DNA from: an uncultured Clostridia bacterium
Lineage (GTDB): Bacteria; Bacillota; Clostridia; Lachnospirales; CAG-274
Reading direction: 5' to 3'
Length of the DNA stretch: 64,000 nt
Assembly (NCBI GenBank): GCA_944384235.1
Contig: CALWSP010000006.1
Span: forward strand, 124,001 to 188,000
The position numbers were made by a program, and so were the translations under genes. This document shows positions 561-5,375 of the stretch, one piece after another. The first letter of the stretch is position 1; each line of letters begins with the position of its first letter. The notes beneath the pieces were generated by a model, which made no database searches, was not told the DNA's origin, and saw only the letters and a list, made by a program, of their open reading frames with translations.

Positions 561-2807
561 ATGGATATATTAACAGTTGAAGGCATTGTAGAAAGAATAA
601 CCTTTTACAATGCAGAAAATGGATATGCTGTCTTTGTTGTAAACCCAAACAACACAGAAAAAGTTAATGAAATAACTTGTGTTGGCTACACCTCCACAGT
701 AAATGTTGGAGAGTCTGTAACAATAAAAGGCAAAGTAGTAAACCACCCATACTACGGCAAACAAATTAATATAGAAACCTTTGAAAAAACTGAGCCACGT
801 TCAGAAAAGGCAATAGAGCTTTATCTTTCAAGTGGGGTTATAAAAGGAGTTGGTCCAAGAACTGCTAAAAGAATAGTAGAAAAATTTGGTGATAAAACTC
901 TAGAAGTAATAGATAAAACCCCCGAAAAACTTTCAAAAATAAAAGGCATAAGCCACGAAAAAGCCATTTCAATTGGTAAAGTGTATAGAGAAAAAACAGA
1001 TGAAAGAAATGCTCTTTTGTATCTTTCAGAATACGGAATTAGCCTCTCTTATGCAATTAAAATTTACGATAAATATAAAGACAAAACCATTAGCATAGTA
1101 AATAAAAACCCCTATGCTTTAGCTGATGACATTTTCGGAATTGGCTTTAAAATAGCTGATAATATAGCTGAAAATATAGGAATTCCTAAAAACTCGCCTT
1201 TTCGAATAAAAGCAGGAATTAAATACATCTTAAATCAAGGTGCAAATAATGGCAATGTGTTTTTGCCAGAAAATGTTTTAATTTCAAAAACAGCAGAACT
1301 TTTGTCCCTTCAACAAGAGCTTGTTGAAACAGAGCTTTTAAATATGCACATAGAAAATAAAATCTGGATAGAGCGAGCTGAAAACTCAACAAATGTCTAT
1401 CTAAACTTCTTCTATTATGCAGAAGGCTATGTTTCAAGAAAACTAAATGAGTTAAATTCAATAAATGTCAATTTAAACTATAACTACGATGCTGAAATTG
1501 ACTACCTTGAAAACATTCATAAAATCAAGTTTGCTAAACAACAACGAGATGCAATAAAACTTGCCACACAAAACGGGGTTTTAGTAATAACAGGTGGCCC
1601 TGGAACAGGAAAAACAACAATAATAAATGCCATAATAGAAATATTTAAGGCAGAAGGCTATAAAATAGAACTAGCTGCCCCAACTGGTAAAGCAGCTAAA
1701 AGAATGAAAGAGGCAACTGGCCACGAAGCCCAAACAATACATAGGCTTTTAGGCACAATTTCTTTAAGTGAAACTTCAAGAAATCAATCTTTTGAGAAAA
1801 ACGAAGAAAATCCAATAGAGGCTGATATAATAATAATTGATGAATCCTCTATGATAGACATTTTGCTAATGCACTCTCTTTTAAAAGCCATAGCAAGGGG
1901 AACAAGGCTAATTTTAGTTGGAGATAGCAATCAGCTCCCGTCTGTTGGCCCTGGCAATGTTTTAAAAGATGTGATTAATTCAAAAATTATAAGTGTTGCT
2001 AACCTAACAGAAATTTTTAGACAATCTCAACAAAGTGATATTGTAATAAATTCCCATAAAATAAATAACGGCGAATATCCGTCTTTGAAAAACAATAAAA
2101 ATGACTTTTATTTTATGAAAAGGCTAAATGCTGTGGATATTCAAAACCTACTTGTTGAACTTGTTAGCTCAAGGCTTCCAAACTATTTAAAATGTGACCC
2201 AATTAAAGATATCCAAGTTTTAACACCAATGAGAAAATCCCCTCTTGGAGTAATAGAACTAAATAAAATTCTACAAAACGCATTAAACCCACCTTCTCCA
2301 GATAAAACAGAAAAAACATATAGAGATAATGTTTTTCGTGAAGGCGATAAAATAATGCAAATAAAAAACGACTATAATATAGATTGGAAAATAATTGAAA
2401 GAGGTAAAATTATAGACGAAGGCACAGGTGTTTTTAACGGAGATGAGGGCATAATAACCTATATAGACCTTTCAAATGAATATGTTGAAATACTCTTTGA
2501 CGATAATAAAGTGGTTCACTATGAGTTCACTCAACTAGATAAAATCTCTCTAAGTTATGCTGTAACAATCCATAAAAGCCAAGGTAGCGAATATAAAGCA
2601 GTAATTATGCCTCTTTTAAATGGCCCTGAAATGCTAATGTCAAGAAACCTTTTATACACTGGCTTAACAAGAGCCAAACAACTTGCTGTTCTTGTTGGTT
2701 CTGAAGAAACCATCAAAAAAATGGTAGATAACAATAAAGAAATTAGTAGGTATACAAACCTAAACCAAAAAATTAAAGACTTTGCAACCTTTGCAAACCA
2801 AAAATAA
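561..2807 (+). CDS. recD2: ATP-dependent RecD2-type DNA helicase
   Basis: This is a superfamily 1B 5'-3' DNA helicase of the RecD2/YrrC type, found without RecBC in Firmicutes and linked to DNA repair and replication fork maintenance. At 748 aa it has the normal RecD2 length. An N-terminal OB-like region (about 1-80) is followed by helix-hairpin-helix segments (SGVIKGVGPRTAKRI near 89). Walker A GGPGTGKTT is at about 345-353, Walker B DESSM at about 426, and the C-terminal UvrD_C-like motif HKSQGSEYKAV at about 671, followed by YTGLTRAK near 698. AAAGGA precedes the ATG by 9 nt. The gene stands alone and ends at a strong bidirectional hairpin. No truncation is seen. Confidence 0.95.
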   Translation: MDILTVEGIVERITFYNAENGYAVFVVNPNNTEKVNEITCVGYTSTVNVGESVTIKGKVVNHPYYGKQINIETFEKTEPRSEKAIELYLSSGVIKGVGPRTAKRIVEKFGDKTLEVIDKTPEKLSKIKGISHEKAISIGKVYREKTDERNALLYLSEYGISLSYAIKIYDKYKDKTISIVNKNPYALADDIFGIGFKIADNIAENIGIPKNSPFRIKAGIKYILNQGANNGNVFLPENVLISKTAELLSLQQELVETELLNMHIENKIWIERAENSTNVYLNFFYYAEGYVSRKLNELNSINVNLNYNYDAEIDYLENIHKIKFAKQQRDAIKLATQNGVLVITGGPGTGKTTIINAIIEIFKAEGYKIELAAPTGKAAKRMKEATGHEAQTIHRLLGTISLSETSRNQSFEKNEENPIEADIIIIDESSMIDILLMHSLLKAIARGTRLILVGDSNQLPSVGPGNVLKDVINSKIISVANLTEIFRQSQQSDIVINSHKINNGEYPSLKNNKNDFYFMKRLNAVDIQNLLVELVSSRLPNYLKCDPIKDIQVLTPMRKSPLGVIELNKILQNALNPPSPDKTEKTYRDNVFREGDKIMQIKNDYNIDWKIIERGKIIDEGTGVFNGDEGIITYIDLSNEYVEILFDDNKVVHYEFTQLDKISLSYAVTIHKSQGSEYKAVIMPLLNGPEMLMSRNLLYTGLTRAKQLAVLVGSEETIKKMVDNNKEISRYTNLNQKIKDFATFANQK

Positions 2808-2837: not shown

Positions 2838-2856
2838 TTTTTCTCTTTTAAATATT
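2838..2856. repeat. 19-bp direct repeat, left copy, flanking the R-M cassette
   Basis: The 19 bases at 2838-2856 are identical to those at 4481-4499. On the minus strand the repeat contains the last codon, the TAA stop and the downstream AAGAGAAAAA of the methyltransferase gene. The similarity extends a few more bases on each side if one-base indels are allowed. This looks like a target duplication or recombination scar. Confidence 0.85.
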
Positions 2857-3825
2857 TATTACATTTAATATTTCTAATGCAATTCTTTCAACCACTGTAA
2901 CCACTACACTATTTCCAGCCTGTTTATACAATCGTGTATTACTTAAAGTGGTTGGTATTTTAAATGTATCAGGAAATCCCTGTAACATAAAACACTCCAT
3001 AGGTGTCAGCTTTCTTATACCATATTTTGTATTTATTAATGGAACATTATGTCCACCTGTTCCCATATTAGCAGTTAAAGTTGGACAAAGACCACTCTTA
3101 TTTTCTCTAACATATATCCTCCTCCATTGATATATTGATTTTTCATTTTTCATATTTTCATACAATTCATTATAAAATTTACAATTTTCTTCTGTATAAT
3201 AATATTTTTTATCAACCTTTTCTTCAAAATCAACTATATCTTCTATTTTCTTTGTTAATTTAATAGGCAAAGGAAAAATAAACTTTTCATATTTTTCTTT
3301 AGATAAAAATCCAACAATATATATTCTTTCTCTGTTTTGTGGTGTATTACCATATTCAGAAGCATTTAAAACTTGTTGCTTTACAAAATAACCTAATTTC
3401 TTTAACTCCTCTAAAATAGTTTGAAATGTATTTCCACTATCATGACTAACCAAATTTTTAACATTTTCAAAAAATACTATTTCTGGTTGTTTTCCCGTTT
3501 CAATTTTTTCTTTTATAATTCTTATCATTTCAAAAAATAAGGTTCCTCTACCTTTTTCATCATTAAACCCTTGTCTATAACCTGCCAAAGAAAATGCCTG
3601 ACAAGGAAACCCTCCTATCATAATATCAAAATCAGGTATTTCTTTGCCACTTACAATATTTATATCTCTATTATCTACCTTTAATTTAAAATTATTTTCA
3701 TATGTTATTACTGGATATTTATCTATCTCATTTGCATAAACTACCTCAAATAAATTAGTTTTTTCAAATCCTAAATCTATACCTCCAACTCCCGCAAAAA
3801 AACTTCCTACTTTATATTTATTCAT
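2848..3825 (-). CDS. DNA (cytosine-5-)-methyltransferase, type II R-M system
   Basis: This is an m5C methyltransferase that protects the host genome from the adjacent endonuclease. The 325-aa protein has the ordered family motifs: motif I FAGVGGIDLGF (10-20), motif IV GGFPCQAFS with the catalytic Cys75, motif VI ENV (120-122), motif VIII QNRERIYIVGF (163-173) and motif X GNSVV near 309. The variable target-recognition region between VIII and X is short. A GGAGAT site lies 6 nt before the ATG. It follows the endonuclease gene by 72 bp on the same strand. That gap holds two GCNGC motifs. The stop codon lies inside the 19-bp repeat. Target specificity cannot be read from sequence alone; overall resemblance and the Bsp6I-like partner suggest GCNGC, at low confidence. 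Confidence 0.93.
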   Translation of the reverse strand: MNKYKVGSFFAGVGGIDLGFEKTNLFEVVYANEIDKYPVITYENNFKLKVDNRDINIVSGKEIPDFDIMIGGFPCQAFSLAGYRQGFNDEKGRGTLFFEMIRIIKEKIETGKQPEIVFFENVKNLVSHDSGNTFQTILEELKKLGYFVKQQVLNASEYGNTPQNRERIYIVGFLSKEKYEKFIFPLPIKLTKKIEDIVDFEEKVDKKYYYTEENCKFYNELYENMKNEKSIYQWRRIYVRENKSGLCPTLTANMGTGGHNVPLINTKYGIRKLTPMECFMLQGFPDTFKIPTTLSNTRLYKQAGNSVVVTVVERIALEILNVINI

Positions 3826-3842
3826 AATATCTCCTTTATTAC

Positions 3843-3854
3843 GCGGCGTGCCGC
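3843..3854. promoter_or_regulatory. paired GCNGC sites / GC-rich inverted repeat in the methyltransferase leader
   Basis: The 12 bases gcggcgtgccgc form an inverted repeat of GCGGC and GCCGC two bases apart, in otherwise AT-rich DNA 18-29 bp upstream of the methyltransferase ATG. Each arm matches GCNGC, the target of the Bsp6I family. A 4-bp hairpin with a 4-nt loop is possible in the mRNA, just before the GGAG ribosome binding site. A role in methylation-dependent or structural control of the methyltransferase is an inference. Confidence 0.5.
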
Positions 3855-3897
3855 TTTTTTATAAAATAAAAGTAAAGGAATGTTTCACTCCTTTCTT

Positions 3898-4452
3898 TTA
3901 TTTTTTTCTATTAATACTTCTGCTACGAATATTAAAGATTATATCTGGTTCTAAATTATATTTATCTATTATCATTTTTTGTATTGAGAATCTAGGTCTA
4001 CGACCTTGCTTCTGTTGGTCTTCAACTGTTTCATTAGCATTAACCATTATCTTTTTTAAATCTTCTGAACTAACTCCTGTTTTATAAATTTTTAAAATAT
4101 CATCATATTTTTCTAATCTAACAAAAACTAACTCATCAAAATATTCAGATGGACTAAAGCTATTAGGTGCAAATATATTTTCTGCACTACTTCCCTTTAT
4201 TTCTATAACAAGAGGATTTTCAGGATTTTCCATATCTACAGAATCTCCATATGTTCCTTTTTTATTAACATAAAGATTTAGAGCATAACAAGCCATATAT
4301 TCAGAAATTTCTGAAGGAAAATTTATTCCCCTTGTTCCAGATAAAGTTTTTATTTCAGTATCTAAAACTTTCCAATGAAAATATATATCTATAACTTGAT
4401 TTATTCTTGCATCATCTACTTTAACTAAATCTATTTTTTGTATTTTTTCCAT
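3898..4452 (-). CDS. putative type II restriction endonuclease, Bsp6I-like
   Basis: A 184-aa protein is encoded directly upstream of the cytosine methyltransferase on the same strand, the usual layout of a type II restriction-modification pair. An RGINFPSEISEYMACYAL segment (41-58) and a PD-(D/E)XK-like active site, Asp70/Asp73 then E84-I-K86 (VIEIKG), fit a nuclease fold. I assign it to the Bsp6I family (GC^NGC) from remembered resemblance only. The start at 4452 lacks a clear ribosome binding site and lies 38 nt after the folD stop, so it is probably expressed by read-through from the folate operon or from a weak internal promoter. If not Bsp6I-like, it is still most likely the cognate nuclease. 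Confidence 0.62.
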   Translation of the reverse strand: MEKIQKIDLVKVDDARINQVIDIYFHWKVLDTEIKTLSGTRGINFPSEISEYMACYALNLYVNKKGTYGDSVDMENPENPLVIEIKGSSAENIFAPNSFSPSEYFDELVFVRLEKYDDILKIYKTGVSSEDLKKIMVNANETVEDQQKQGRRPRFSIQKMIIDKYNLEPDIIFNIRSRSINRKK

Positions 4453-4480
4453 ATATCTACATAATGAAACATTCCATTGC

Positions 4481-4499
4481 TTTTTCTCTTTTAAATATT
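4481..4499. repeat. 19-bp direct repeat, right copy, flanking the R-M cassette
   Basis: This is the identical partner of 2838-2856. On the minus strand it carries the last codon and TAA stop of folD plus AAGAGAAAAA. Removing one copy with the 1.6 kb between them would join folD directly to the terminator at 2810-2837. Confidence 0.85.
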
Positions 4500-5375
4500 A
4501 TTCTGGTTTTTGCAAGCAACTATACAGTTTTTCATAAGCATAGCAATAGTCATAGGCCCAACGCCACCAGGAACAGGAGTTATGTAGCTAGCCTTTTTCT
4601 CAACTTCCTCAAAATCCACATCTCCACATAACTTTCCGTTTTCTAACCTGTTAATACCTACGTCAATAACAACTACACCCTCTTTTACCATATCGCCTTT
4701 TATAAAATTAGGAATACCCACAGCTGCCACTAATATGTCAGCCTCTTTGCAAACTGCCTTAATGTCCTTTGTCTTTGAGTGGCAAATAGTAACAGTTCCG
4801 TTTTCAGCTAAAAGCAACATACTAACTGGCTTTCCAACAATGTTGCTTCTGCCAACAACAACACAATTTTTCCCTGAAATGTCAACGCCACTTCTTTTAA
4901 TAAGCTCAATGCAACCAGCAGGAGTGCAAGCCTTTAACTCAGCCTTTCCAATGCTTAACAACCCAACATTATATGGGTGGAAACCATCTACATCTTTTTC
5001 AGGTGAAATTCTTAACAAAACCTTGTTTTCGTCAATATGCTTAGGTAAAGGTAATTGAACTAATATACCATTACACTCCTTGTTTTCATTTAATTTATCA
5101 ATTAAATCTAACAACTCTTTTTCACTAATGCTTTCATCAAGCTCATAACTTAAAGACTTTATCCCACAATATTCACAAGCAGTTTTTTTGTTTCTAACAT
5201 AAACCTGGCTTGCGGGGTTTTGTCCAACTAAAATAACTGCTAAACAAGGCTTAACTCCCTTTTCTACTAAATTTTCAGCTATTTGCTTAACTTCATTTTT
5301 TATATCCAAAGAAATTGTTTTGCCATCTATAATCTTTGCCATTTTCCTTTTCACCAATCCTCTTTTAAATTTCAT
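4491..5375 (-). CDS. folD: bifunctional methylene-THF dehydrogenase / methenyl-THF cyclohydrolase
   Basis: FolD interconverts methylene-, methenyl- and 10-formyl-tetrahydrofolate. Features are YVRNKKTAC (59-67) with the likely catalytic Lys63, the Rossmann segment VVGRSNIVGKP near 172, and the family signature TPVPGGVGPMTIAML near 267. The annotated ATG overlaps the preceding lipoprotein stop in an ATGA, suggesting translational coupling. The usual FolD start, MAKIIDGK, is an internal ATG at 5342; neither start has a well-spaced ribosome binding site, so the N-terminal 11 residues are uncertain. It belongs to the fhs - lipoprotein - folD operon, giving a one-carbon unit set. Confidence 0.95.
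   Translation of the reverse strand: MKFKRGLVKRKMAKIIDGKTISLDIKNEVKQIAENLVEKGVKPCLAVILVGQNPASQVYVRNKKTACEYCGIKSLSYELDESISEKELLDLIDKLNENKECNGILVQLPLPKHIDENKVLLRISPEKDVDGFHPYNVGLLSIGKAELKACTPAGCIELIKRSGVDISGKNCVVVGRSNIVGKPVSMLLLAENGTVTICHSKTKDIKAVCKEADILVAAVGIPNFIKGDMVKEGVVVIDVGINRLENGKLCGDVDFEEVEKKASYITPVPGGVGPMTIAMLMKNCIVACKNQNNI

Follow-up and report, generated by a model that had tools for sequence, protein, structure and literature searches.

The question raised by this locus is how a restriction-modification (R-M) unit came to lie between the host genes recD2 and folD, with a perfect 19-bp direct repeat at its borders. In the window, as we call the whole 64,000-nucleotide stretch of DNA that was analyzed, positions 2838-2856 are identical to positions 4481-4499 (TTTTTCTCTTTTAAATATT), and rechecking both borders bore out the coordinates and the identity given in the original prediction. 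Read on the minus strand, the repeat (AATATTTAAAAGAGAAAAA) encodes Asn-Ile-stop followed by AAGAGAAAAA, and it forms the common end of two genes. The left copy holds the Asn-Ile-TAA of the methyltransferase and then runs into a terminator arm, while the right copy holds the final Asn-Ile-TAA of folD. That the repeat carries the TAA of each gene had been recognized before, but together with a single last codon, where it actually carries the last two (AAT ATT). Exact copies of the 19-mer, with no mismatch allowed, number two in the window and two in the entire 1.75-Mb genome. Of the 1624 bp between the copies, 28 bp form a leader and 72 bp the gap that separates the nuclease gene from the methyltransferase gene, and the two genes take up the rest, so the earlier description of nothing but a nuclease and a methyltransferase was accurate.

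The first gene (3898-4452, minus strand) encodes a 184-aa type II restriction endonuclease of the Bsp6I family. It scores 31.6 bits against the Pfam family RE_Bsp6I, for which the curated cut-off is 25 bits, and its D70 and ExK (E84, K86) residues are conserved in the family alignment. Among solved structures, no relative of the nuclease was found. Directly downstream, in the same R-then-M order as in tandem relatives, lies a C5-cytosine DNA methyltransferase of the Bsp6I/LlaDII type (2848-3825, minus strand, 325 aa; Pfam DNA_methylase, 5.7e-91; NCBIfam dcm), which is 56-67% identical to the methyltransferases adjoining Bsp6I-family nucleases in tandem cassettes. Since the nuclease belongs to this family, whose specificity we take to be GCNGC, and two GCNGC sites precede the methyltransferase gene, the predicted specificity of the window system is GCNGC. 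Plasmids of Clostridioides difficile, Bacillus, Streptococcus, Lactococcus and Enterococcus carry relatives with the R-then-M order, and further ones occur in a Blautia phage, IMG/VR contigs and two additional genomes from the same order. One genome-contig match (L062) proved to be false. Searches of the six other genomes from the genus detected no homolog of the nuclease, and a wider search of genomes from the phylum yielded nothing new. The R-M genes have a GC content of 25-26%, compared with 31-36% for their neighbors and 32.5% for the genome. This low GC content fits a recent arrival, as does the failure to detect the nuclease elsewhere in the genus.

The unit is flanked by two convergent host genes, recD2 (561-2807, plus strand; NCBIfam helicase_RecD2, 871 bits) and folD (4491-5375, minus strand; Pfam THF_DHG_CYH), to which a bidirectional intrinsic terminator at 2806-2841 is common, as judged from its inverted repeat and from folding. 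Its limits had been placed at 2810-2837 and are corrected here. The terminator consists of 16-bp perfect arms around a 4-nt loop, is terminator-like on both strands, and folds with a z of about -5 on either strand. It overlaps the recD2 stop codon (2805-2807) at one end and reaches 4 bp into the left repeat copy at the other, where AAAA (2838-2841) pairs with 2806-2809 inside the stem. The AAAA of the right copy has no comparable pairing partner. In that copy, AATATTTAA appears as the natural 3' end of folD, and an Asn-Asn-Ile/Leu ending (NNI or NNL) recurs in the folD of related species. Because the folD half of the repeat is native on the right and the terminator half is native on the left, the repeat would span a single ancestral junction. 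Its best explanation is that one ancestral stretch, leading from the end of folD through AAGAGAAAAA into the terminator, is now present twice. When one repeat copy and the unit were deleted in silico, the join consisted of the folD stop codon, about 10 nt and the intact terminator.

The 3' end of the methyltransferase bears on the same junction. The closest homolog is encoded on a C. difficile plasmid and is 67% identical. Its last residue falls immediately ahead of the repeat, and its C-terminus (...IKDII*) aligns with ...ILNVI in the window, after which NI* follows from the repeat. Since the homolog ends exactly where the repeat begins, the window methyltransferase evidently takes its Asn-Ile-stop from folD.

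We consider it likely that a horizontally acquired Bsp6I-type unit of 1624 bp, with the predicted GCNGC specificity, entered the locus in a single insertion that separated the folD stop codon from the bidirectional folD/recD2 terminator, and that the 19-bp target was duplicated in the process. The insertion may have proceeded by a staggered break and fill-in, or by an equivalent end-joining. The methyltransferase would then finish with two codons and a stop codon taken from the duplicated 3' end of folD, and the old folD terminator would now lie 3' of the methyltransferase. No mobility gene was found nearby, in keeping with the earlier remark that no transposase was visible. An insertion had already been proposed for this locus; the two native repeat halves and the homolog that ends before the repeat support it, but no duplication was seen around 14 related cassettes. 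In these cassettes, from plasmids, phages and other genomes, flanking duplications were absent even with mismatches allowed, and no flanking direct repeat rose above the shuffled null, which goes against the idea that the same cassette lies between copies of another target. We also counted against target duplication that this is a single locus, that a 19-bp AT-rich repeat is short, and that similar isolated repeats occur elsewhere in the genome.

We compared the junction with six other genomes of the genus, in which the DNA identity of folD is 70-77%. Convergent recD2 and folD genes were present only in one of the six, the sister species G001, where they are separated by approximately 2.3 kb of unrelated small genes. 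Across the genomes of the genus and family compared, no empty site with a single repeat copy turned up; G001 alone has recD2 next to folD, and the members of the genus are too diverged or rearranged at this junction. The arrangement in G001 supports an ancestral recD2-folD neighborhood and, because other genes are held at the junction there, the junction looks tolerant of insertions. An SMR-type transporter and a small HTH protein are encoded between the two genes in this species (L053, G001:C7, 5586-7926).

Comparisons between plasmids show that the Bsp6I-type unit travels as just the R and M genes. The two-gene unit, with the same leader-arm start, is 97-99% identical in unrelated plasmid backbones, and near-identical plasmid copies begin at the nuclease leader and diverge within the last codons of the methyltransferase. 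In one rep backbone, the same place is occupied by an Eco47II R-M unit in pIBB3403.1 (L077) and by a Bsp6I-type unit in p1525-c (L080), and this is evidently an R-M exchange site. The units of pAF22 (L086) and p1525-c are 99% identical until the last ~20 codons of the methyltransferase, where the tails differ. Methyltransferase tails thus seem to be exchanged at the junctions.

Such swapping of tails, and of entire R-M units at one backbone site, lends some weight to a different origin of the window arrangement, namely recombination, homologous or homology-facilitated, with a donor strain or plasmid in which the cassette already lay behind a folD-like end. In that case, an older event would have left the repeat, or microhomology at the methyltransferase end would account for it. 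The methyltransferase 3' ends of two relatives do hold TAATAAATAT, in another frame, which makes a microhomology of a few bp plausible. However, a microhomology of at most ~10 bp cannot yield the AAGAGAAAAA half of the repeat, which is terminator sequence and belongs to one side only, and we regard recombination of this kind as unlikely compared with an insertion that duplicated its target.

The repeat could also be a coincidence, or could have been kept by selection for the stop codon and T-rich terminator tract instead of being a product of insertion. A scan of almost the whole genome for direct repeats that are isolated, exact, 19 bp or longer and spaced 0.8-6 kb apart found 13 pairs in ~9e9 position pairs of this AT-rich genome. 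A repeat of at least 19 bp somewhere in the genome is unremarkable. Two other isolated repeats of 18-22 bp with similar spacing were inspected in the same genome, and both lie in ordinary genes and not around cassettes. In the flanks of the two R-M genes (~310 x 340 positions, ~1e5 pairs), ~1.5e-4 repeats of at least 19 bp are expected, and the longest direct repeat in shuffled flanks was 12 bp. Because the repeat coincides exactly with both gene ends, a chance origin is untenable given its location. The ~13 isolated repeats of this length in the genome are what this explanation has in its favor, but with so low an expectation in these flanks, both copies matching gene ends to the base, and a right copy without terminator function, we find it very improbable. 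Least credible of all is that the unit is self-mobile by means of terminal inverted repeats and a short target duplication, like the short-duplication class in the literature; the duplication is indeed short and an inverted-repeat pair flanks the nuclease gene, but that pair is internal, reaching only as far as the R-M gap and not to the methyltransferase end, no terminal inverted repeats were found at the unit ends (score 14, p=0.35), and the relatives have no duplications.

That R-M units can insert and duplicate their target is known from published work (PMC3874152, PMC3031569), but a case as clean as this is rarely seen. The first of these papers, reviewing Nobusato et al. 2000 and Furuta et al. 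2010, distinguishes short duplications, which come with imperfect terminal inverted repeats, from long duplications of ~100 bp. The second describes the same for long duplications, as well as IS-linked movement in the laboratory. Like these units, the window unit lacks a mobility gene and is bracketed by direct repeats derived from host sequence. It differs from the short-duplication class in that its 19-bp repeat is not accompanied by terminal inverted repeats, and from the ~100-bp class in that the repeat is only 19 bp and the flanks diverge at once. Unlike in the published insertions, the methyltransferase stop codon would be supplied by the target. The locus may capture cleanly the entry of an R-M unit into a chromosome, without a transposase and with the host genes unbroken. 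The target would give the new gene its stop codon and a terminator, and the nuclease would be placed under a housekeeping operon. The movement of bare R-M units thereby becomes testable at one base-resolved site.

The left border of the unit also has consequences for expression. The unit starts 5 bp before the leader arm, so that the arm begins 5 bp inside the repeat border. Because this leaves no room for a promoter of its own, the nuclease would have to depend on transcription that continues out of the folD operon or on a promoter that folD sequence provides. It lies 38 bp behind the folD stop codon and no terminator was found between the two on the minus strand, so the nuclease is probably driven by read-through from the folD operon.

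Between the two R-M genes, a palindrome with two GCNGC sites (GCGGCACGCCGC, 3843-3854, minus strand) is the presumed methylation-sensitive control element of the methyltransferase promoter. All tandem cassettes compared (the window, L050, L051, L063-L068, L070, L072 and L083) have this palindrome, whole or almost whole, and in most of the tandem relatives it overlaps the -35 box of the presumed methyltransferase promoter. The window system resembles the Bsp6I/LlaDII systems (GCNGC) in its nuclease family, its tandem R-M order and the GCNGC palindrome before the methyltransferase. It differs from them in being chromosomal, in having no visible promoter of its own for the nuclease, and in its R-M gap of 72 bp, which measures 83-108 bp in the relatives. 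Moreover, the palindrome in the window is not followed by a recognizable -10 box. Since the promoter boxes of the relatives, including the -10 box, are not recognizable here, control of the methyltransferase may be different in the window. LlaDII itself is regulated by methylation of the methyltransferase promoter (PMC12707154).

The nuclease leader is complementary to the 3' untranslated region (UTR) of the same gene. In the window, the leader arm GGAATGTTTCA (4465-4475, minus strand) pairs with TGAAACATTCC at 3877-3887, which is contained in a terminator-like hairpin just 3' of the nuclease stop codon (3874-3894, minus strand). This duplex has a predicted energy of -22.2 kcal/mol (p=0.002 against shuffles) and was the best of 11 partners. 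Overall, the leader, from about -37 to -8 relative to the start, is complementary to a stretch ~9-31 nt past the nuclease stop in 10 of 11 tandem cassettes (the window, L050, L051, L063, L064, L066, L067, L070, L072 and L083), several of which are closely related, so that the independent groups number about six. The Blautia phage is the exception. The paired sequences vary by group (GATAAAACAAC, GGAAGCACAC, TAGAAAATAACAC, TGGTAATATGCCAC and GGAATGTTTCA), but the pairing is conserved. Each of these leaders prefers its own 3' UTR, which ranked first of 11 in nine cassettes and second in the tenth, with p values of 0.002-0.01 relative to shuffles. Among the flanking mismatches there is a mild excess of G-U pairs (28% versus 18% expected). 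In two IMG/VR contigs (L069 and L071), the Bsp6I-type R and M genes are convergent and the leader/3' UTR pairing is absent.

When whole nuclease mRNAs were folded, five favored the 5'-3' pairing and the rest the local terminator hairpin, which suggests that these structures are alternatives to each other. The covarying pairing suggests post-transcriptional control in a well-known R-M family, and no earlier description of it was found in the papers searched. One reading is that it acts as a hok-like fold-back lock on the nuclease mRNA; other readings would make it an operator pair or a purely structural terminator. In hok/sok-type systems, a potentially toxic mRNA folds back on itself through complementarity between its two ends. 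The likeness lies in this 5'-3' complementarity alone, as the window offers a sequence pattern, and antisense RNA or processing is not part of the comparison. A tentative and rather doubtful extension is that the unit represents a minimal portable cassette. Its left border would be the 5' end of the nuclease mRNA, it would carry no nuclease promoter of its own, and a self-locking mRNA, in which leader:3' UTR pairing competes with the terminator hairpin, would delay the nuclease until the methyltransferase is made. Because the nuclease mRNA would lock itself, such a cassette would be safe behind any host promoter.

Elsewhere in the window's own genome, we observed a long CRISPR array with the repeat GTTTAAATAGTAGTATAGTGGAATGTAAAG (L115, G000:C26:1-13706).
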